Origin: a virus
Direction: 5' to 3' (one strand)
IMG/VR virus record: IMGVR_UViG_3300010885_056201
Coordinates: 1-30,970 of that record
DNA: 30,970 nucleotides
Shown in pieces: positions 15,561-30,579 of the stretch (position 1 is the stretch's first letter; every line of letters starts with the position of its first letter). Below the pieces are notes generated by a model, which saw only the letters and a list, made by a program, of their open reading frames with translations, had not been told where the DNA came from and ran no database searches. A program made the position numbers and the translations under genes.

Positions 15561-15729
15561 GGTCGACGATCTCCTCGATGATGCTGGTTAACGATGTCTC
15601 AATCTTACTTATCTCTGACTCTGAGATCACGGGCGGTGTAGCAGCTGAGAGGCGGTCAAGTTCCTTCTCAAATTGCTGAAGTGCAGCTTGTTCTTCGACC
15701 GACAGATCAAGAAAATCTTTGACCCGCAT
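15526..15729 (-). CDS. Small coiled-coil protein after the tape measure (67 aa)
   Basis: Unrecognised 67-residue protein. It is mostly helical in composition, with heptad-like leucine/isoleucine spacing (EKELDRLSAATPPVISESEI, residues 21-40, then IETSLTSIIEEIVDR) and a basic C-terminus. Its ATG overlaps the tape measure stop as TGATG, and its 3' end overlaps the next gene by 35 bases; such tight packing argues that it is translated. It might be a tail assembly helper or a minor baseplate component. Confidence 0.68.
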   Translation of the reverse strand: MRVKDFLDLSVEEQAALQQFEKELDRLSAATPPVISESEISKIETSLTSIIEEIVDRGRKQANKSNA

Positions 15730-17942
15730 CAGCCTATCCCACCGAAGACGTTAGGCTTGTTCAACATGATATCGCGGAGGACGAGGTCAGTCAGCTGGCC
15801 CACGTCTAGCTCAATTCTCAGTGATGTTCCCACGCCCTGAAGAGACGCGCGGACGGCGTCAGTCACGGCTGGTAGGCTGGCACGCGGCGCGGGTGGCGGT
15901 GCTGGTGCAGGCTCAGCAGGCGGCTTAGCAACAAGTTCGTCCCGCTTGTCAAGTGAGAACGACTTCTCATTCATCTCACCAAAGTTTGCTGTGACGACTG
16001 TGCTGCCTCCCGGTGAGACATAAAGGTCTTGGGTAGGTTTAGCTTGTGTTTGTGCTACACCCGCACGCGCTGCTGCAATGTCAGCTGGCGTAATTTTATT
16101 ACCGGTCAATTTTTGAAGTTGATCGATCAAAGCGTCAAAAAGTTCATTGACAACTTTGCGTGCAATTGGTTCTAATGTTTTTGATAGTGTAGTTAAGCTA
16201 GTCGCAGCTGCTCCTGCTGCCAGCTTAGACAATTCAGCATCTACTTGTCTTACACCCATTAATACAGTTCGATAAGACTCACCGCCTTTCTCAACATATG
16301 TCGCTGCTAGTCTGCCAACTGTATCGTTAAGATCACTGGCTGTTCTAGACATTTCTAAACCAGTATTGGCAAAAATCTTAGCTGCTCTTACAGCTTGCGC
16401 ATGGACGTCTTGCGCTGACTCAAGCATTTGATTATTGATCTTTACACGCTGTTCAAGTTTTGCGTCAAGAAATGCCTGTCTTTCATCGTCAGACTTTCCA
16501 ACATCTTGAAATTCTTTATTGGCACTCTCTTGTGTTGCTGATAGCTCTTCAAGTGATCTAACATTACCATCGAGCAGCCCGCGGAGGCCCTCCATAGTGA
16601 TGCCTAGCTGCTGTGTGATCATTCTCTTGTATGTGATGGGTATCTCATCGAAAGACTTGCCAGTTGCAAGCAAGCCTTCACGTAGCTTCTCGAGCATCAT
16701 GGCGGGATCTTCATATTTCAGATGCATCAATTCCATAGCATCATAATTGGTGCCTAATGCAGCGTTGAGTTGTCCGACTGTTTGTGCAGCCGACTCAAAT
16801 GTGTCAAATTTACCCATTACGCCTTGCAGCTCAGTGATGCTGACATGAAGATCATGTGCTCTCGCTGAGATTTTTGCAAATTCGTCCGTTGATCTAAATC
16901 CAAACATGTCAATGTTCTGTGACATCTTTAGGACATCACTGACTATTAGCTGTGCGTTATAGCCGAATGCTGACTGTCCCATTTCAGCTGATTTAACAAC
17001 GTCATTAAAGTAGTCTGCTGTAGCCTCACCCTCTCTAATATAGTTCAGACGAACTAAGTCGCGTACTTGTTCAGATGTTACTCCCAATCCTTTAATTGCA
17101 ACATCGATTCTCTTAAGATCTTGTAGAGACTTGTCGATGTCTTGAGGATTAAGCATGTCCCTAGCAAAAGGCTGACGAAGATTATCGTCCTGCAGGATGG
17201 TCAAGAAGGGCTGAAATGCTTCGATTGTTCCGCCCATGACGTCCATAAGTGGCACGCCTTGAACTCTAAAAAAATCGTCCCTAACTAATTGTCCATTCTT
17301 TTCCTTAAAACCTGACGCGAGACTATAAAACTCCGTCATGGCACCTTGTGTATTCAAGAATGCCTCGTCGGTGTTATTGACGCCTGCTATAAATTTTGCT
17401 TGCGCATCTGTTAGACTATCTAATGCAATAGGACCCACATAACCAATTGTCTTGTAGTACGTTGAAACTTTCGCAGCTAAGCCTTCTTGTGCAGAAGAAA
17501 TTTGGTCAGTTGCGGTTTTAGCATCAGTTGCCGTCTGGATGAACATACGTGATGATCCACCAACAACCTCGGCGATAGCACGGACCGTATTGACACGTTC
17601 TATTGACATGTCTCTAAGGCGTAGGTTCGCACCCATAAGCTGATCGCCGAAGAACTGAGCGCCCACAGACAGAGCAGCAAATGCATCGACACCGTCACGG
17701 GTCTGCTGTATTGTTGATGCTCTGTAGTTTGACGTCTCAGTTCTGATCGCAGCATTTTGCTGTCGCAGTAAATCAGCCGTCTGTGAAGTTGCCGTTAAAT
17801 CTCTGCGCAACCCTGCTACACGTGATTCTGCCGTCGCCTCGTCTTCGCCCCTTGCAACTCTTTCAATTTTAATGCTATCAATTCTCTGACGATTTCTTGT
17901 CTGAAGTAATTGAATTTCTTCTTTAAGTTGCTCGTTTGCCAT
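15729..17942 (-). CDS. Tail tape measure protein
   Basis: Fills the tail tube, sets tail length and is ejected before DNA. The 737-residue protein is largely helical: an N-terminal coiled coil (about 1-60), long polar helices without transmembrane segments, and a Pro/Ala-rich linker near 665-690 (AEPAPAPPPAPRASLP) before a short C-terminal domain ending NKPNVFGGIG. It stands directly after the frameshifted chaperone pair and before baseplate genes, the invariant place for a tape measure. At about 1.5 angstrom per residue it predicts a tail near 110 nm, close to T4 (gp29, 590 residues). The ATG at 17942 lacks a strong ribosome-binding site and lies 14 bases after the chaperone-extension stop. 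Confidence 0.8.
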   Translation of the reverse strand: MANEQLKEEIQLLQTRNRQRIDSIKIERVARGEDEATAESRVAGLRRDLTATSQTADLLRQQNAAIRTETSNYRASTIQQTRDGVDAFAALSVGAQFFGDQLMGANLRLRDMSIERVNTVRAIAEVVGGSSRMFIQTATDAKTATDQISSAQEGLAAKVSTYYKTIGYVGPIALDSLTDAQAKFIAGVNNTDEAFLNTQGAMTEFYSLASGFKEKNGQLVRDDFFRVQGVPLMDVMGGTIEAFQPFLTILQDDNLRQPFARDMLNPQDIDKSLQDLKRIDVAIKGLGVTSEQVRDLVRLNYIREGEATADYFNDVVKSAEMGQSAFGYNAQLIVSDVLKMSQNIDMFGFRSTDEFAKISARAHDLHVSITELQGVMGKFDTFESAAQTVGQLNAALGTNYDAMELMHLKYEDPAMMLEKLREGLLATGKSFDEIPITYKRMITQQLGITMEGLRGLLDGNVRSLEELSATQESANKEFQDVGKSDDERQAFLDAKLEQRVKINNQMLESAQDVHAQAVRAAKIFANTGLEMSRTASDLNDTVGRLAATYVEKGGESYRTVLMGVRQVDAELSKLAAGAAATSLTTLSKTLEPIARKVVNELFDALIDQLQKLTGNKITPADIAAARAGVAQTQAKPTQDLYVSPGGSTVVTANFGEMNEKSFSLDKRDELVAKPPAEPAPAPPPAPRASLPAVTDAVRASLQGVGTSLRIELDVGQLTDLVLRDIMLNKPNVFGGIG

Positions 17943-17956
17943 GTGTCACTCTAGAG

Positions 17957-18166
17957 TTACTTATCTTTAAGTGCGGCGCTCAAGGGCACATCCATATTAC
18001 TCATAGCATCTGTGGGCTGTGGCGTCTTTGACTTGATCAGTCTTTTAATCGTCCATTCTCTAATTCTCACGGGCATTGCATAAAAGTTCTGGTATGACAC
18101 ATTTAAGTGTGATGCTAGAATAAAGAACGATTCTAACTGATTTTCTTTAAAATTAGTCAGTGGGCC
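17957..18166 (-). CDS. Tail assembly chaperone extension, reached by frameshifting from the gp26-like gene
   Basis: A 69-codon frame that begins in the last codons of the gp26-like gene and ends 14 bases before the tape measure. It has no ATG, GTG or TTG near its 5' end: the first in-frame GTG is about 25 codons in and the first ATG about 30 codons in. The conserved-looking part precedes both. The translation contains LESFFILASHLNVSYQNFYA (residues 11-30), then MPVRIREWTIKRLI, a pattern (F..LA.HLN....F..MP...R.W....LI) like the T part of tail assembly chaperones and small T4-like tail proteins. Fusion through the upstream T7 tract would give a protein of about 351 residues. The frame is +1 (equivalently -2) relative to the gp26-like frame. 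I place the entry from the first codon after the T7 run. Coding potential is convincing; the mechanism is inferred. Confidence 0.72.
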   Translation of the reverse strand, partial: GPLTNFKENQLESFFILASHLNVSYQNFYAMPVRIREWTIKRLIKSKTPQPTDAMSNMDVPLSAALKDK

Positions 18167-19013
18167 AAAAAAAGCTGGCGCCCATTGGCAAATTCACCTC
18201 ACTTTCTGCACCGCAGGAAGAGCACGTGTAGCTTGCCTTCATCTTAATCCCTGGCTCATTCTTAGTGTAAAAGTCTCTTAAAAACTTACTATCGCGCGCA
18301 GGCATGTTGGAAACGAAAGTAGCAATTTTACTACGATCGGTCACACCATCTATTTTAACAATTTGATGCTGCATCCTTGTTGTGATGGGATTCTCTGCAG
18401 AATCTCCTAGCAGCTTCTTGCGCCTTTCAACTTCTATCGAGAGATCTTCTTCGTCTCTACCTGTTAAAAACTTTAGTACGACTTTCTTCTTAGTGATAGG
18501 AAGCAATACTTCAAATTCATTGATACCAGGAACTGTGGGGTCAACTTGCAGAGGCTCAATTTCAAGTGCTGACAGGTCAAAAATGCTAGAGCCGCGTCGA
18601 GCGCAGTGCAAGCAGTCAACTTCGCAGTTATATTCTGCTCCGTAACCTGTAATCCTAATTGCAACAAGTAGTGCCTGCCTATCACCGACAAGCATCATGT
18701 TTGGATCTATGCTCTTATCAATCAAGCAAGATCTAATAAGCTCTGTGATAGTAGTCCCGAGCCTGCTGTAAGCTTTTGACATTATAATGTCTTCTTCTCT
18801 TGCAGTCATTGCTTTAATCTCTACCATTTTCTTGCCATGTAGAGATGAGCTTGTTGGATAGATAACACCTGCTGATGGGAGAGGTGCTACGTCGACCGGG
18901 ACTTCCCAACCAAATTCCTTCATAGCGTCCTGCCGATGTATTCCCTCGGGTATCACGGCGGTGCTCTTCTTATCATTACCACTTGCTGCAAAGATCTCGT
19001 TCTTACGTGCCAA
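18153..19013 (-). CDS. T4 gp26-like baseplate/tail assembly protein with zinc site
   Basis: 286 residues. LPSAGVIYP (45-53), then EIKAMTAREEDIIMSK (65-80), NMMLVGDRQALLVAIRITGYG (105-125) fit the T4-type baseplate protein family that includes gp26. Four cysteines, DCLHC (134, 137) and CSSCG (264, 267), would form a zinc ribbon. The protein ends FFWPTD* at 18153. Between tail tube and tape measure this is the position of the tail assembly chaperone, and an overlapping frame continues downstream. The start is TTG at 19013 with no site of its own except GGGAG inside the terminator hairpin's 3' arm; an ATG at 18923 (MKEFGWEVPV, preceded by AGGAC) is a good alternative that would remove 30 poorly conserved residues. 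Family call is firm; function as chaperone rather than virion component is inference. Confidence 0.82.
   Translation of the reverse strand: MARKNEIFAASGNDKKSTAVIPEGIHRQDAMKEFGWEVPVDVAPLPSAGVIYPTSSSLHGKKMVEIKAMTAREEDIIMSKAYSRLGTTITELIRSCLIDKSIDPNMMLVGDRQALLVAIRITGYGAEYNCEVDCLHCARRGSSIFDLSALEIEPLQVDPTVPGINEFEVLLPITKKKVVLKFLTGRDEEDLSIEVERRKKLLGDSAENPITTRMQHQIVKIDGVTDRSKIATFVSNMPARDSKFLRDFYTKNEPGIKMKASYTCSSCGAESEVNLPMGASFFWPTD
18167..18173 (-). promoter_or_regulatory. Candidate slippery heptamer (T7) for programmed frameshifting
   Basis: Seven T residues on the minus strand, read as AGC TTT TTT TGG in the gp26-like frame (…SFFW). Shifting +1, or -2, gives …FF then GPLTNFKENQ in the chaperone-extension frame; -1 shifting would stop after three codons. 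The run lies 4 codons before the gp26-like stop. Confidence 0.6.
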
Positions 19014-19072: not shown

Positions 19073-19561
19073 TCAGAACTGGAGAACGCAGTTGTCAAAG
19101 CGGAGTGTGAGCTCAATCTTCACGACTTCATCTGCTCCGTAGTCAACAGCACCGTAGTTGGCTGTTGTAATGAATGCGCCCTTGAAGTCCCAAAGTTCAA
19201 CGACAGTTCCGACTGGATCGATCATCTTCAGCTGGCAGTCACGCTTGTAGAAGTCAGCATAACCAGCACGTCCGCTCACCATCTCCTGGTGCGTGCGGAG
19301 CCACTCCATCACCTGCTGTGCGCCTGAGGGTGCAATGGGATCGTGAAGTGTGATACCGATCGTTCCGAAAGTGAACTTCTTTGCGAGGTAGCGTGTGCTG
19401 TTGATCCATGGGATGGTGATCTCACCGCCTGTGAAGGTGGGTCGTGATGCTTTCGACACGAGGTAGGAGTCGATACCCTCAAGTGCGAAAACCCATCGAT
19501 GCTGACGCTTCGGCTCAAACTTATTGGGAAGCATGTCGGTGACTGAGAGTGTCTCTGCCAT
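19073..19561 (-). CDS. gp19: Tail tube protein, T4 gp19-like
   Basis: Forms the inner tube of the contractile tail through which DNA passes. At 162 residues it matches gp19 (163). Characteristic stretches are FEPKRQHRWVFALEGIDSYL (16-35), FTGGEITIPWINSTRYLAKK (43-62), TITLHD-like GITLHDPIAPSGAQQVMEWL (69-88) and a beta-rich C-terminus KIELTLRFDNCVLQF. The ATG at 19561 follows AGGAGAATTTAAT, a strong ribosome-binding site in keeping with a high-copy protein. It lies between the sheath genes and the terminator at 19020-19051. Confidence 0.92.
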   Translation of the reverse strand: MAETLSVTDMLPNKFEPKRQHRWVFALEGIDSYLVSKASRPTFTGGEITIPWINSTRYLAKKFTFGTIGITLHDPIAPSGAQQVMEWLRTHQEMVSGRAGYADFYKRDCQLKMIDPVGTVVELWDFKGAFITTANYGAVDYGADEVVKIELTLRFDNCVLQF

Positions 19562-19589: not shown

Positions 19590-22559
19590 TCAAGTGAGAG
19601 TCACACCTGCATTGCTGAGCTCAAAGCTGAGTGCGATGAACTCGATGGAGCGGGTGGGTTGGATGAAGATCTTGCCGCGGATCGTGTTGTTGTTGATGTC
19701 TGCTTGTGTCGTCGTGGTCGAGTCAATCACAACCTTGTAGCGATCAAGGCCGCCCTTTGAGCGGATTGATGCAAGGATAGGATTGACGAGGCTGTTGAAG
19801 CGCTCGAGTGTCGCTGCAGTGTTGGGCTCGAAGATGATCTGGTTCGAGACTGCACGGACCTGGCGACGAAGTGTGATCAGAAGACGACGGACGTTGACGC
19901 GATCGAGAGCAGATGCCTTTGCAAGCAGCGTCCTTTGACCGTAGATCACCAGCTTGCGATCGGAGTTAGATGTGATGTCAAGGATGGGGTTGATGTGTGC
20001 ATCGTAGATCGAGTCAGCAAGCGTTCCCTGCTTGATCTGCGTCGCTGCTGAACCGACTGTCGTAATGACACCGCGATTTGCTCCAGCGGGTGCGAACCAG
20101 GGATATGATACGCGATCGTTGTAGGCAAATGCACCCAAGACGCCGACGCTGGGTGGAACGCGTGTGGTCGATCCCTGGAAAGGAATGTTGATGTCTGGGA
20201 AGTATGCTGCTGCAAAAGAGCTATTGAGACCGCGGTTGCTGAAAGCGTTGATTGTGTTTGCGATGCTCACTGTGGCGCCGTCATATGACCCTGTCAGCAC
20301 AACATTGTAGCTGTCTCTCTCTTCGATGTCCATCAAGTAGAGCGTATCGAAGCGGTTCTCGACTGCACTGATTGCATAGTCAGTGATGACGCTGTTTCTA
20401 ATACCGGGAATTGTCAAGAGTGTGATGTCAGCGTCGTCCTTGCTGCCCATGATATTGACTGCCTTGCGGTAAGCAGCCACGGTAGGTCCTGCAGTGCCAC
20501 CTTGCCCTGCTGTGTCATCAATCTCGCGCTTGACGGCGTCGTTATTGAGTGATACCTTGTCTGCATTGAAGATGTTGGTGCCGTCAAAACCGCCCTGTGC
20601 AATGAACAAGAAAGATACAAACTGCCTGTTACCTGTCTCTCGAAGGTCATCTACCTGGAATGCACGTGTCTTTGTTGCGCTATCAACGGTGATGCTACCA
20701 TTTCTAACATACGTGGCATTTGCCCACTGTGTGCTATCAGCACGGTTGTTGACTGCTGACGATCCTGTTACAACTCGGATCCGCTCGAGTGAGAAGAAAT
20801 TGTTGTTAAAGACGTCAACGTCGAGGACGTTGCCGTTTGTTGTTGCTGCGCCGGGATTGTTGTCAACAAAGAAGTTCATATTTGCAGGTGCAAATGATGG
20901 GAAGAACTTCGTGTGGCTGTCAATGTAGGACAGCTTGGCAGTTGTTGAGTTAAAGTCAGAGACGCTTGGCACATCTGTGAACTGGATGCCCCACGTCAGC
21001 GATGAATCAACGACACCGCCGTTTGCAATGTTTCTACGGTATGGAATGGGTGGCTCAATGACGCGCTTGAGGACGTCTGTCTGACCAGCTGCAAAGCGAG
21101 CAACATCGGAAAGATTTGTGAGAAGTGAGCTGCCCGATGTGACTAAGTGTCCGTAGCCTCTGTGGCCAAAAGGCAGTGCTGCAACGGGAACTTCTCCTGC
21201 CAAGAACTGATCAGACATCTCAACGCGGATGTAAGGATTGACGACTGCGTAGTCGCCATCAGAGACTATCTTCTGGGATGTAAGCCCCTTGTCAAAGTCA
21301 AAGTATGTGCTCTGATCACCGATGCGAAGTGCAATGTAGTTAGGTGAGTCGGGATCAAGCGTCAGTCCAGAGAAGTCGACGCCTGCGACTGGTGTGAGGT
21401 TGAACACCTGACCTACAGGATAGCTGTAGAGCACGAGATCAAACGTTCCGTAAGTGTCATTGTCTACACCTGGAACGATGTTCTGGATGTTAAACACAAA
21501 GCGCGTGTTATTGTAAGCACCGTCGCCAAGTGTGTGTATTCTGAAGAGATCGTACTTTGTTCCACCAAAATCTTGTGAGACAACAAACGGTGTCTTAGGA
21601 TGTGTGAACCGCTCACTAAAGTTCTCGTAATTTGGTACCGTTGCAGAGCTTGAATCTCTTGCAAGACTTCCCGATGTGATGAATGCTGCGTCCTCAAGCC
21701 CCGTAAAGACGCGTGCTGATGCTGCATCAAGAATGCCTGAACCTGTTACAACTGCCAGCGAAGCAGGAATGTCATAGTAGGCATAGAGGAAGTGACCCTT
21801 CTCCTCGATCTTTGTCGGATCGCGATTGATGCTTGCATTAATCGAAAAGTGATTAGAATTTGCAGGATCAAATGATGCTGTAATAGAGTTCGCTGTTCCC
21901 GTGTAACCATTTAGCAGCATCACGAACGTCGAGTCACCGATGTTGACTGAGCCTGTAAGTGCACCATTTGGGCCGCCTGCTGTTGCTGCCGTTGCTGCAG
22001 GCGTATTAGATGTATTAAAATTACCTGACAATGCGAGTGTTACGCCTGATGGCGCCAGGACAACAGCACGAAGAATAGGATGTGCTTTTGAGCTTTTCTG
22101 GATGCCCGCCTCAGAGAAGATTGTACTTCCAGCGCTCTCTGACATGTAGCATCCAAGGAAGTATGTGCGTCCAGGAACGCCACCATCAACTGCAGAGATA
22201 TTTCTGCTAACTGCGCCGTTGCCTTGAACCTGCTTGCTACCTACAACGAAGCCTGCATTTGTCACTTGTCCTGTTGATGTGCTTCTCTTGAGGCCGTCAC
22301 CGGCACCCAAAGTGCGCAGGAACGTAACTGAGGCGGGTGAGGCTGCATTGGCAAAGTACTGTTGTCCTGCGAGTGCACCAAAATTTGAGTTTGTTGCTTC
22401 ACCGAAGACGCGATTAAAGTCAGACACAGATCCTACAACAACAGGAACGAATGCAGGACCTGACTGTGCCGTGCCGATGATGCCTGCAGATGGCCCTGTT
22501 GGGGGTGTTGAAGTCACACCCGTTAGGTCAACTTCGCCGGAGTATACGCCTGGGATCAT
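19590..22559 (-). CDS. gp18: Tail sheath protein A, T4 gp18-like
   Basis: Contractile sheath subunit. The N-terminus PGVYSGEVDLTG then AGIIGTAQSGPAFVPVVVGS is the sheath arm/handshake region. The conserved C-terminal part includes VIYGQRTLLAKASALDRVNV and RRLLITLRRQVRAVSNQIIFEPNT (about 880-930), YPWFAPAGANRG (about 820), and ends in a beta strand SIEFIALSFELSN. At 989 residues it is much longer than T4 gp18 (659); the extra length is in the variable middle (about 150-600), likely surface domains. It is a paralogue of the adjacent sheath protein B. The ATG at 22559 has an AGAGAGG ribosome-binding site. Confident as sheath. Confidence 0.93.
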   Translation of the reverse strand: MIPGVYSGEVDLTGVTSTPPTGPSAGIIGTAQSGPAFVPVVVGSVSDFNRVFGEATNSNFGALAGQQYFANAASPASVTFLRTLGAGDGLKRSTSTGQVTNAGFVVGSKQVQGNGAVSRNISAVDGGVPGRTYFLGCYMSESAGSTIFSEAGIQKSSKAHPILRAVVLAPSGVTLALSGNFNTSNTPAATAATAGGPNGALTGSVNIGDSTFVMLLNGYTGTANSITASFDPANSNHFSINASINRDPTKIEEKGHFLYAYYDIPASLAVVTGSGILDAASARVFTGLEDAAFITSGSLARDSSSATVPNYENFSERFTHPKTPFVVSQDFGGTKYDLFRIHTLGDGAYNNTRFVFNIQNIVPGVDNDTYGTFDLVLYSYPVGQVFNLTPVAGVDFSGLTLDPDSPNYIALRIGDQSTYFDFDKGLTSQKIVSDGDYAVVNPYIRVEMSDQFLAGEVPVAALPFGHRGYGHLVTSGSSLLTNLSDVARFAAGQTDVLKRVIEPPIPYRRNIANGGVVDSSLTWGIQFTDVPSVSDFNSTTAKLSYIDSHTKFFPSFAPANMNFFVDNNPGAATTNGNVLDVDVFNNNFFSLERIRVVTGSSAVNNRADSTQWANATYVRNGSITVDSATKTRAFQVDDLRETGNRQFVSFLFIAQGGFDGTNIFNADKVSLNNDAVKREIDDTAGQGGTAGPTVAAYRKAVNIMGSKDDADITLLTIPGIRNSVITDYAISAVENRFDTLYLMDIEERDSYNVVLTGSYDGATVSIANTINAFSNRGLNSSFAAAYFPDINIPFQGSTTRVPPSVGVLGAFAYNDRVSYPWFAPAGANRGVITTVGSAATQIKQGTLADSIYDAHINPILDITSNSDRKLVIYGQRTLLAKASALDRVNVRRLLITLRRQVRAVSNQIIFEPNTAATLERFNSLVNPILASIRSKGGLDRYKVVIDSTTTTQADINNNTIRGKIFIQPTRSIEFIALSFELSNAGVTLT

Positions 22560-22591: not shown

Positions 22592-25500
22592 TTACACAAA
22601 GCTTGCGCCGTTATCTGTCACAATGAAGTCGATCGAGATGAACTCCACAGCGCGTGTGGGTATGATGATGACCCGTCCGTTCAGACGGTTTGCAATCACA
22701 TCTGTCTGTGTGTTGTTGGTATCGTCAACTATAACACGGAAGCCTTCGATGCCCTGCTGTGCCTGGACAAGTGCCAGAGCAGGATTGACCTGCGACACAA
22801 AAGCCGACCTTGTGGCGGCGTTGTTCTGCTCAAACAAGAATGTGCTAGCAATATTGCTGACAACGCGCTTCACTTCATTCACGAGGCGACGCACATTAAC
22901 GCGATCAAGCGCAGATTTTCCAACTTGCAGTGTCTTCTGTCCAAAGATGACGTAACCTGTGCCCGGGAATGACGTGATTGGGTTTATCCTATTATCATAC
23001 AGGAAGTCGCGATCTGCAGAGTTGAGACGTACTGCTGTTGTTGACACAAAGTTAAGGGCGCCGCGGTTAAAGCCTGCAGGTGCATACCAGGGATGTGATA
23101 CGGCATCATTGTATCCTATAGCTGCCAGCGCTGCGACTGATGATGGCACCTTGATCTTCCGCGATGTGCCGCCCTGATCTTGCATAGAAATATCTGGGAA
23201 GTAGACGGCAACAAAGTTATTGTTCAACTTTCTTGATGTAAACTTGTTGCCTGTCTGCTGGACATCTGGATGCTCTGATCCACCATCGAACAATCTAGAC
23301 CCGTTGTAATCGTATCCTGGAATGTCCATCAAGTAGAGAGCAAAGCCATAGTTCTGCACAAGAGTTGAGACGTAGTTGGTAACTGCTGCATCTCTTATGC
23401 CAGGAGCAGCAACCACGCTGACGTTTGATGCGTATCGATTTGTTAAGATCTCAGCGGCTGTTCTGTAAGCTGTCACAATGCTGTTGTTGACACCTGCGCC
23501 TGGTGTGTATGCTGAATTAAGACCGATGTCGACCACAGCGACTGCCTTTCCACCTGTCTCTGACGACGTTGCTCGGTCATTCATCTTACCCATGTCAGGA
23601 TCGAGGATGTTGAGGCCGTCAAAACCGCCTGTGAAGATGTTGGTAAACTTTGCGTAGTTTGTAAACTTGTTGAAGTAGATCGACGAAGTTACCGAGTAGA
23701 GCGATGCAAATGTTAACCTATTGCCCTCAGATGTGGGTTGAACAGTGTAGTTTGTTGGATTAACTACGCCGTTACGTATGTAAGCTGTCTCGAGAATGTG
23801 CTGCTCTGTTGTGCCTGTGATGTCAGCAAGCGCATTGATAAGTGTGCGTCCGCTGAGTGAGTTGTTTAGTGCGACACGTGCCAGCGTGAACTTGTTGTTT
23901 GAGAATGCATCAGCTGATGATCCTGTAACCAAAACATCAAGCTTCTGGATGCCTAACAGCTTGCTGTAGGACGCGAGCAATGGGTTAAAAGTTGAGCTGT
24001 CATTGGAGCGAAGAATTGCATTAGAAACACTTGATGTTAAGGGAAGTGCTTCTGACTTAATGCCCCAGTAGTAAGATGCATCTGCGATCTCAAGCGAGCC
24101 TGGCTTGCCAACATAGCCGCCTGCTGCATCTACAGCGTTAGTTGTTGTTTTGAAGCGAAGCGGCACAGGTGGAAGAATTGATCCAGTGTGTGCCGCAAGA
24201 CCTGCTGTCCCAAAGACACCTGCGAGACGGCGGGCTGTGCTTGCTCCAAATCCGCTTAAACCCGCTGTATTGTCTGTAAGTGTGTCTGTTGTTTTAATGA
24301 CTGGCAGACCTCTAAAGCCGAATGGAAGCGCATCAGCTGGAACTCGCTTTGTCTCGACGTCGGCGTGCATTACAACTCTTATGCGACTTGACACGCTTGA
24401 TCTTGTGCCTGATGTATAAGCTTTACGCTCATCTGATGTAAGCGCATCGAAACTGAAGAATGACTTCTGGTCACCAATGCGCTTTGCAACGTAATCATCG
24501 TCGTCAGGATTGAGCGTGCAGTTAGGATACTGCTCAAGGATGACAGGATTCTTGTCAGTGTCGTAGAAATCACGAACTTGAACTGTGAATGTTCCGAATG
24601 GATTTGCAGGATCACTTGACTTAGCAAGTGTGCTGATTGATACTTTGTACTTCTGCGATGTATTTGCACCGTCGTTCAGAGTTTCAAAGTAGAAAAGATC
24701 ATATTCACTTGAACCGTATGGCTGCGAGATGAAGTAAGTTGTCTTTGCTGACGAGTACCTCGTGTCAAATCTTCCGAAAGCATCTCTAAAAGATTGCGCG
24801 GTGTCACCTGAGGTCGCAGATGTACTTGCCGATCCTGATAGGACGGCAACTGCACCGCTGTCGGTTGATGTGATTGCAACCTCAGCCTCGACGGGGAAGT
24901 CAGCGTAAAGTAAATGCTCTTCTGCCTCAAAACGTGCTGGATCAGTGTTGAGTATGTTACCAATGTAAGCTGTATCAGCAGGATCAAGTGACGCTGTCAA
25001 AATCCTGATGCTTGTCTGGCCATCACCTGTAGAGAATGCGGGTGAAGAGCTAGAGATAACAAGCTTGAACTTTCTATAGAGATTGCTGCTTAGCGTGGCG
25101 CTAATTGTTGCATTATCGTCAGCTGTGTTTGCAACTGAATAGTCCTGATTGTGGTCAAGAACCTGCAGTCGTGTGCCTGATGCGAGTAGCACCATGCCAC
25201 GAACTAAGTTGACAAAGTTGTCACCTGATGCAACGTTGAAGCTGTTGTTGTCTGTAAAGATTGGGTATCCTACATCAGCAGATGCTGATACCCAGTGTTT
25301 TGCTGTGATATACTGAACCGCGCCTTTGTGACGTGCATCTGTGCCAACTGCTGGCGTCGTTCCTTTGATGAAGAAGCCTGCGTTCTTAACCGTTCCCTGC
25401 GCTGTAGTTGTTGAAAAATCTGATGTTGTTGAATTCGCACCACATCCAAGCACTCTAACGAATGTAAGTGCTGTGCCGTTCTGTAAGTACTGACTGGCAC

Positions 25501-25708
25501 CCTGCAGGCCCACGTCAGATGCACGAGGAGCACCGAAAACTTGCTGAAGCTGTGCTGCATTGCCTACCGTCACTGGGACGAATGCGGGGCCGATTTCTGA
25601 TGTTCCAATTACACCAACTGGAACACCTGATACGCCAGGTGTTGCGGGAGATGATAAATCGATCTCTTGCTCAAAGAACCCAGGCGATCTAAAAGTTGTC
25701 TCTGCCAT
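22592..25708 (-). CDS. Tail sheath protein B, paralogue of sheath A
   Basis: Second full-length sheath-type protein (1038 residues from my start). Its N-terminus RSPGFFEQEIDLSS then PVGVIGTSEIGPAFVPVTVGN parallels sheath A, and the C-terminal block HPWYAPAGFNRG (about 874), YVIFGQKTLQVGKSALDRVN (about 920), VRRLVNEVKRV and PTRAVEFISIDFIVTDNG has the same order. The middle is diverged, so it is an old duplication rather than a recent copy. I start at the second ATG (25708), six bases after GGAG; the ATG at 25711 is only three bases from it. It follows the gp15-like gene and precedes sheath A. Both genes are intact, so both may be built into the tail, or one may be a cap or baseplate-proximal variant. 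Confidence 0.91.
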   Translation of the reverse strand: MAETTFRSPGFFEQEIDLSSPATPGVSGVPVGVIGTSEIGPAFVPVTVGNAAQLQQVFGAPRASDVGLQGASQYLQNGTALTFVRVLGCGANSTTSDFSTTTAQGTVKNAGFFIKGTTPAVGTDARHKGAVQYITAKHWVSASADVGYPIFTDNNSFNVASGDNFVNLVRGMVLLASGTRLQVLDHNQDYSVANTADDNATISATLSSNLYRKFKLVISSSSPAFSTGDGQTSIRILTASLDPADTAYIGNILNTDPARFEAEEHLLYADFPVEAEVAITSTDSGAVAVLSGSASTSATSGDTAQSFRDAFGRFDTRYSSAKTTYFISQPYGSSEYDLFYFETLNDGANTSQKYKVSISTLAKSSDPANPFGTFTVQVRDFYDTDKNPVILEQYPNCTLNPDDDDYVAKRIGDQKSFFSFDALTSDERKAYTSGTRSSVSSRIRVVMHADVETKRVPADALPFGFRGLPVIKTTDTLTDNTAGLSGFGASTARRLAGVFGTAGLAAHTGSILPPVPLRFKTTTNAVDAAGGYVGKPGSLEIADASYYWGIKSEALPLTSSVSNAILRSNDSSTFNPLLASYSKLLGIQKLDVLVTGSSADAFSNNKFTLARVALNNSLSGRTLINALADITGTTEQHILETAYIRNGVVNPTNYTVQPTSEGNRLTFASLYSVTSSIYFNKFTNYAKFTNIFTGGFDGLNILDPDMGKMNDRATSSETGGKAVAVVDIGLNSAYTPGAGVNNSIVTAYRTAAEILTNRYASNVSVVAAPGIRDAAVTNYVSTLVQNYGFALYLMDIPGYDYNGSRLFDGGSEHPDVQQTGNKFTSRKLNNNFVAVYFPDISMQDQGGTSRKIKVPSSVAALAAIGYNDAVSHPWYAPAGFNRGALNFVSTTAVRLNSADRDFLYDNRINPITSFPGTGYVIFGQKTLQVGKSALDRVNVRRLVNEVKRVVSNIASTFLFEQNNAATRSAFVSQVNPALALVQAQQGIEGFRVIVDDTNNTQTDVIANRLNGRVIIIPTRAVEFISIDFIVTDNGASFV

Positions 25709-25734
25709 CATTACTCCGACTTCAAAGCCGAATA

Positions 25735-29595: not shown

Positions 29596-30579
29596 TCACG
29601 TGAACCTGATTACTTCAAGATGAGCATCATTCTGGAGACACCATGACATCGTGGCGCGCCACTTCTCTCGGTCGACCTCTGTCTCGTATCCCTTCACCTC
29701 GTACAGCGTCTTCCCGTCGAGTGTCAAGAAGTCTGGGATGTAGGTGCGCTCGAGCCCGTTCGGGTCCGTGTATGTGATTCGGATGCCGTGCTGCTTGGTG
29801 ACTGGGACGTTCTGCTCGACGCACTGGTCGAGGAAACGGGACTCCCAGGAGGAGTGCATGTATTCCTCCTTGCCCGTGAATGGGTTCAGCTTCCACTCGG
29901 CCTTGTAGGGCGCCTGGGGACCGATCTTGCCCTGCTCGAGGAGATTACAAGCTCGGGATGACCATAGTTTCCTCATTTCTGGATTCTCTTCCCACCATTG
30001 TTTTGACCACGTTGATTTTTTTGCTATCACTTCGGGTCGTTGGGCTACTTCTTTGCTTATTTTTCTCATGTTTTCTCGATATTCATCAGATGCCATGATC
30101 TCATGTCGAGGATCATTTGGATCTGACCATCTAGTTTTTGATGCTTTTGAATACCGTTCTTTCATCTCATTTGTCCGCTTCTTTCCCTTGTTCGGACTGT
30201 TTTCACCTTTCTTCCTGAACATTGGATTATTCTCACCGCGGCTTGCATGACCGTCGACGAAGATCGCAAAGCCGCCCTTCTTCCAAGTAAGCTCATTGTC
30301 ACATCCGCATGCACACTTAGGCCACACACCGCCGTGCACATGCTTCACTTCATACAGCGGCCAGTCAATTCCGTGCACCTTTCTTACATGTCGTGCAAGG
30401 ACATTGTTTGAGTTTGCGACCATCTCACCACACTCTAGACACTTCATGGTGAAAGCTACGGTCTTGTCGTAAAGTGACTTAGCAACTTCCTTGTGGTGAT
30501 AGCCAACGTGTGCGCCAATTGAACGTGGCGTGTTATTAATCATTGCATCACAGTAATCGCACTTAATCTTGTCGACCAT
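29596..30579 (-). CDS. Free-standing homing-type endonuclease with zinc fingers, NUMOD-like repeats and PD-(D/E)XK nuclease
   Basis: 327 residues. N-terminal C2H2-like fingers: CDYC…HVGYHH (7-29) and CLECG…HVRKVH (47-69), plus a Cys cluster CACGCD. The middle has Asn-Pro/Lys-rich segments GENNPMFRKKGENSPNKGKK (115-134), typical of NUMOD DNA-binding motifs of homing endonucleases. The C-terminal domain has WESRFLDQC (Glu at about 244), YIPDFLTLDGKTLYEVKGYE (275-294): an E…PD…EVK set fitting a PD-(D/E)XK or Vsr-like nuclease. Such genes cleave related phages lacking them and spread by recombination. It stands alone between the capsid terminator and the acidic gene, with its own AGAGG ribosome-binding site. 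The nuclease-domain DNA is much more GC-rich than the middle part. Type of nuclease is inferred. Confidence 0.84.
   Translation of the reverse strand: MVDKIKCDYCDAMINNTPRSIGAHVGYHHKEVAKSLYDKTVAFTMKCLECGEMVANSNNVLARHVRKVHGIDWPLYEVKHVHGGVWPKCACGCDNELTWKKGGFAIFVDGHASRGENNPMFRKKGENSPNKGKKRTNEMKERYSKASKTRWSDPNDPRHEIMASDEYRENMRKISKEVAQRPEVIAKKSTWSKQWWEENPEMRKLWSSRACNLLEQGKIGPQAPYKAEWKLNPFTGKEEYMHSSWESRFLDQCVEQNVPVTKQHGIRITYTDPNGLERTYIPDFLTLDGKTLYEVKGYETEVDREKWRATMSWCLQNDAHLEVIRFT

Follow-up and report, generated by a model that had tools for sequence, protein, structure and literature searches.

A Conserved, Probably +1, Programmed Frameshift in a gp26-like Phage Gene Points to a Pair of Short and Long Tail Assembly Chaperones

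Introduction

The locus studied here raises the question of how a short reading frame without a usable start comes to expression between two phage tail genes. The window, i.e., the whole analysed stretch of 30,970 nucleotides from virus record IMGVR_UViG_3300010885_056201, contains a gp26-like gene that ends a few codons after a run of seven T's, and a second frame that continues from this run almost to the next gene. The initial annotation interpreted this arrangement as a programmed +1 or −2 frameshift in a T4-like tail assembly gene. In phage lambda, gpG and its −1 frameshift product gpGT are tail assembly chaperones, and G-T frameshifting is reported to be a conserved trait of long-tailed phages "except T4" (PMC5009743). 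For decades, the T4 proteins gp26 and gp51 have had contradictory roles or no known role (PMC3004832). Here, we ask which mechanism best explains the second frame, how widely it is conserved, and what it suggests about the T4 proteins.

Results

Gene Order and Reading Frames

The gp26-like gene and its neighbors are summarized in Table 1. Its coding sequence ends with ATG GGC GCC AGC TTT TTT TGG CCC ACT GAC TAA (protein end ...GASFFWPTD), and it apparently uses a TTG start (window positions 19011–19013), which is kept in the relative L001 (2984; MARKNEIF...). The frame in +1/−2 phase is open from 18193 to 17957 on the minus strand, i.e., up to 14 nt before the next gene (17942). Neither ATG nor GTG nor TTG occurs in this frame ahead of an internal MPVRIREW, which agrees with the claim that the extension lacks a usable start at its 5' end. 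In the −1 frame, a stop is met 20 nt beyond that of gp26, so a −1 shift cannot reach the extension, and the mechanism has to differ from that of lambda, as had been proposed.

Table 1. Features of the gp26-like locus (window coordinates) and of the bacterial loci used for comparison (coordinates of the respective locus).
Feature	Position	Strand	Remarks
gp26-like tail assembly chaperone, short (0-frame) product	18153–19013	−	286 aa; profile matches, model
Tail tube protein (gp19-like), directly upstream of the gp26-like gene	19073–19561	−	phrog_4542 tail tube, E = 2.9e-28
Presumed tape measure protein	15729–17942	−	737 aa; by position only; 14 nt between extension and start
Slip site, codon-phased TTT TTT T(GG CC)	18167–18173	−	T7 (A7 on the plus strand)
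Frameshift extension (T-like domain)	17957–18172	−	69 residues after two Phe; FFGPLTNFKENQLESFFILASHLNVSYQNFYAMPVRIREW...KDK
0-frame TAA stop ending the short product	18153–18155	−	after TGG CCC ACT GAC
SD-like stretch (TGAGGTGA)	18194–18201	−	21–28 nt upstream of the slip site
Bacterial cluster, fused genome	L195 859–1626		
Bacterial cluster, fused genome	L196 1366–2106		
Bacterial cluster, two ORFs	L194 644–1197		

The classic order of tube, chaperone, and tape measure genes, which had been recognized from the sequence, was substantiated for the tube by its phrog_4542 match, whereas the tape measure label rests on position and not on similarity. A tape measure protein is annotated at the corresponding place in SP-15, LIS04, and immuto; the protein in the window yielded no family match in profile searches and no similarity to the immuto protein. 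Based on its place and on the annotation of the relatives, we refer to it as the presumed tape measure protein.

Identity and Predicted Fold of the Two Parts

The gp26-like protein matches PF12322 (T4_baseplate; E = 2.3e-15, 57.3 bits versus a cut-off of 24.5) and phrog_150 (E = 2.4e-19), and carries a zinc ribbon with two CxxC pairs. A weak match to phrog_1854, a PmgB-like family, was also seen (E 0.005); PmgB of phage P1 is encoded directly upstream of the tape measure gene, and a role as tape measure chaperone was suggested for it (PMC9024508). With all nine gp26 sequences collected first, profile searching gave no conserved block, and closer subsets were therefore used.

The gp26-like part and the extension were modelled separately. 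The AlphaFold model of the gp26-like part (pLDDT 88.9) matched the SP-15 baseplate hub and T4-type hub assembly proteins in a viral structure library. Among 660 solved chains, the best match for its N-terminal half was the HK97 tail assembly chaperone 2ob9, which was weak (Z 5.8; rmsd 2.9 over 75 residues) and no proof of a common fold, since the Foldseek E of 1.0 lies below the tool's safe level. The next rows reached Z values of 3.6 or less and were mainly zinc-ribbon proteins matching another part. The model is thus suggestive of an HK97-type tail assembly chaperone fold. The earlier view of a gp26-type zinc-ribbon protein as the "G" part is supported. The helical pattern noted for the extension was recovered as a predicted three-helix domain (pLDDT above 90 for residues 11–50), for which comparison with viral structures and the PDB gave no significant fold match.

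Conservation of the Phase and the Slip Site among Relatives

Relatives were collected by tblastn of phage records and subsequent scans of IMG/VR, and the totals of loci given here are lower bounds. The tblastn relatives comprise Flavobacterium phage immuto, Microcystis phage Mel-JY01, Streptococcus phage GXN1, Listeria phage LIS04, Bacillus phage SP-15, and two huge phages, and all of them except the huge phage LR756511 carry an overlapping ORF in the same +1/−2 phase after the gp26-like gene. Both parts were in range at 176 or more listed loci, some of them on contigs that are near-identical copies of one virus; the phase was +1/−2 at 175 of 176, −1 at one (L054), and in frame at none. The arrangement is thereby not confined to marine T4-like phages and extends to Bacillus phage SP-15, to a phage of Streptococcus agalactiae, and to a huge phage. 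It is widespread and deeply conserved as judged by these sequences, so that the "unusual variant" of the initial annotation holds with regard to the direction of the shift, opposite to that of lambda, but not as a one-off.

The slip site proved to be similarly stable. TTT TTT TGG CC- is present in 154 of the 175 listed relatives and another codon-phased T7 or T8 (TAC CCT, TTC CCT) in six, giving 160 with a codon-phased run TTT TTT T in all. TTT CTT TGG CCT occurs in another six and C T6 GG CCT in one, while the remaining +1/−2 relatives (types of the SP-15 group, LIS04, and LR756508) have other UUU-Y forms. The −1 phase was seen only in LR756511 and L054. In the former (L006, 4148–4420), the extension lies in −1 phase over G GGT TTT TTC, which contains a classic U UUU UUC site; in the latter (around 3256), an assembly error is also possible. 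At the protein level, the conserved residues of the extension are FFGL, IFxLxYHGxGGF, and VYxMPxxLRxFY, and the extension of the window is 42–46% identical to those of its closest relatives L001 and L093.

A single-base mistake in T7, made during sequencing or assembly of the homopolymer, would create the same pattern from what is truly one continuous ORF. The relatives already refute this reading, to which we assign a negligible probability: the same seven T's and the same phase recur in the assemblies of about 160 other contigs and in complete isolate genomes, and immuto has a version of the site that is not a homopolymer.

Selection on the Slip Site and the Extension

Of 92 Phe codons at the slip site, 91 are TTT, compared to 79% in the rest of the gene (48 lineages, p = 1e-8); these lineages were filtered for redundancy and are still related, hence p-values are optimistic because the relatives are not independent. 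The Pro codon after the site is CCT in 41 of 48 lineages. Past the gp26 stop, the extension showed a pN/pS of 0.17 (469 pairs), and substitutions were distributed over the three codon positions as 4253, 3280, and 11,255. By these comparative measures, the extension evolves as a protein under purifying selection. Taken with the common phase, this evidence goes far beyond chance and upholds the proposed programmed frameshift, which we regard as almost certainly real.

A further signal was found upstream of the slip site. The anti-SD energy in this region is −5.0 versus −2.5 in synonymous recodings (48 lineages) and reaches −9.9 at −28 in the window. The SD-like GAGG/AGGAGG stretch lies 21–34 nt upstream of the site (codons −12 to −9 in relatives), and none of 100 synonymous recodings was as strong. 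Its distance from the slip site is too great to fit known frameshift stimulators such as those of prfB and dnaX. Downstream RNA structure was not supported as a stimulator (mean z −0.16), nor did the site show a fixed slow A-site codon. A CCC CGA or xCC CGA site as in Gram-positive phages was also considered and dropped, as CGA is present in only some of the group.

The SD-like stretch would also be compatible with the extension being a small gene in its own right that has a start of its own, perhaps a non-standard one. This reading can further point to separate ORFs that end at the extension stop in the annotations of Mel-JY01 (with a TTG start), immuto, and SP-15, and to one genome in which the two parts are separate ORFs. 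However, the extension frame of 34 of 93 loci lacks ATG, GTG, and TTG as far as 20 nt beyond the gp26 stop, no start is conserved among the relatives, and in several of them the open part of this frame begins just 23 nt ahead of the gp26 stop, with one or two codons before the slip site in several loci; an own start is therefore not the rule. Since the slip-site codons are moreover conserved at the nucleotide level and in-frame fusions exist, we consider an independent gene very improbable.

Direction and Mechanism of the Shift

For a frameshift, the phase alone allows a shift by +1 or by −2, and the comparison of slip sites favours +1. A +1 slip of tRNA-Phe requires UUU with U or C as the next base, and all 93 loci of the first batch have this at the site. 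Tail chaperones of the phage Mu type are made by −2 slippage, and the same long protein, with an extra Phe at the junction, could arise in this way here: the U7 shared by the window and most relatives lets tRNA-Phe re-pair two bases back, and such a position exists in 85 of the 93 loci. The other eight, which belong to several lineages, offer no Phe codon for re-pairing at −2 and yet keep the phase. Their T runs are interrupted (TTT CTT TGG, TTC TTT CAT, TTC TTT CGT, and TTT CTA), which argues against −2 slippage as well as against polymerase slippage at these loci. Ribosomal −2 slippage hence appears unlikely.

Slippage of RNA polymerase on T7/A7, whereby some mRNAs would lose one U or gain two and the fusion would be made by normal translation, appears less likely still. 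The U7 of the window would permit it, and the seven-base homopolymer is conserved in most relatives; against this, the run is broken (TTT CTT TGG; TTC TTT CAT; TTC TTT CGT; TTT CTA TTC) in several lineages of the same phase, and a seven-base run is short for efficient polymerase slippage in bacteria.

From the comparison of the sites, we thus infer that the shift is probably a ribosomal +1 slip. Most ribosomes would stop at TAA and release the short gp26-like protein of 286 aa, whereas some would slip +1 on U7. In the latter case, tRNA-Phe would leave UUU for the overlapping UUU, and reading would continue with GGC, which would yield a protein of 351 aa with the helical extension of 69 residues. 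By analogy with lambda gpG/gpGT, the part common to both products may form a coat around the tape measure protein, the extension may recruit tail tube subunits, and the presumable ratio of short to long product may set up tail assembly. We regard a G/GT-like chaperone role of the two products as likely, and likewise the explanation as a whole, i.e., one gene giving rise to two tail assembly chaperones via a +1 slip.

As in lambda, one gene would give two products through a frameshift close to the end of its short ORF; the gene follows the tube gene and precedes the presumed tape measure gene, and the C-terminal extension is short and helical. The differences concern the shift, +1 (or −2) at UUU UUU UGG in the window and −1 in lambda, and the short part, which is a much larger PF12322 zinc-ribbon protein for which we claim no sequence similarity. 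Programmed +1 shifts in structural or assembly genes have been described for the capsid and tail genes of Listeria phage PSA and for G-T of the archaeal virus HSTV-2 (PMC5009743), although the PSA shift occurs in other genes, at a proline codon that precedes a stop or a pseudoknot, and that of the HSTV-2 G-T gene is inferred.

Comparison with T4 gp26 and gp51

T4 gp26 (208 aa) and gp51 (249 aa) both match PF12322, with 215.6 and 177.5 bits, respectively. When all are aligned together, gp26 terminates with FFELL at the position of the slip-site FF, i.e., where the short product ends, while gp51 continues with a C-terminal extension of its own, whose Y-S...IMxMxPxERSI lies against GGF...VYxMPxxLRxFY of the frameshift extension. 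Using hhalign, gp51 compared to the long form gave an E of 2.5e-4 over the full length, and the extension alone a weak P of 0.0047. In addition, 5 of the 54 extensions are hit by phrog_634 ("baseplate hub assembly catalyst"; best 0.015). The gp51-type and the frameshift extension did not match significantly in a HMMER search, and the single T4 gp51 sequence gave no useful alignment with the extension profile. Judged by these alignments, gp51 is likely, though not proven, to be the long form of the chaperone.

T4 differs from the window in that gp26 and gp51 are encoded by two separate, divergently oriented genes with no frameshift, and in that the similarity of the extensions is weak. A precedent for such a situation is phage 0305phi8-36, which has a duplicated two-gene tail chaperonin with G and GT made without a frameshift (PMC2147016), although its proteins are others and the window uses a frameshift. 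We consider it reasonably likely that T4 gp26 and gp51 form a short and long tail chaperone pair, in which duplicated genes stand in place of the +1 frameshift. Within this reading, and held jointly with about the same degree of confidence, the two relatives in −1 phase would have switched to −1, and contractile injection systems would keep only the in-frame long form. Annotators of Lazarus phage labelled gp26, gp51, and gp28 as "tape measure protein assembly chaperone", and a chaperone role is thus not a new idea.

In-Frame Counterparts in Bacterial Clusters

In two Bacteroidota genomes, a gp26-like part follows a gp19-like tube gene and runs in frame, after FF, into an extension-like C-terminal segment; the sequences there read ...QSFFMLRLTGERRNLLEEVHLIASHYHWSHREILELPRSERKSY and ...AGFFWAELDAWARRTLHEVHLLATAYGWAERDILALSPWRRQAY. 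In a third Bacteroidota genome, the gp26-like part and the extension are separate ORFs. Neighboring sheath- and tube-like proteins suggest that these clusters are contractile injection systems. DUF6760 (PF20546) matches the C-terminal segment of the first fusion (1.9e-6) and 13 of 54 extensions (best 1.6e-5), whereas the extension of the window itself gave no match to this profile. Compared to the extension HMM, the C-termini of the fusions matched weakly, with an E of 0.004 for one and no significance for the other. Unlike the arrangement in the window, the contractile injection-like PF12322/DUF6760 proteins are encoded by a single in-frame ORF without a frameshift.

Discussion

We found no report of the frameshift described here in the literature searched, most subscription journals lying outside its coverage. 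A +1 frameshift in this family would tie the T4 "exception" to the unclear roles of gp26 and gp51. It leads to the prediction that gp26 serves T4 as its short and gp51 as its long tail chaperone; if true, T4 would no longer be an exception to the G/GT rule. The site itself, UUU UUU UGG, would be one of the rare natural +1 sites of viruses infecting bacteria, and a deeply conserved one. Through the frameshift extension, the same domain is indicated for bacterial contractile injection systems.

For annotation, the consequence would be that a domain of 60–110 residues is missed in hundreds of phage genomes. In the deposited annotations of immuto, Mel-JY01, and SP-15, small "hypothetical" ORFs represent pieces of the extension (L002 4333–4443, L003 4234–4470, and L008 4294–4413, respectively).

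Regarding other genes of the window, positions 19590–22559 and 22592–25711 encode consecutive proteins of 989 and 1039 aa that look like adjacent tail sheath paralogues. Within the structural gene region, a protein of 327 aa (29596–30579) resembles a free-standing homing endonuclease.
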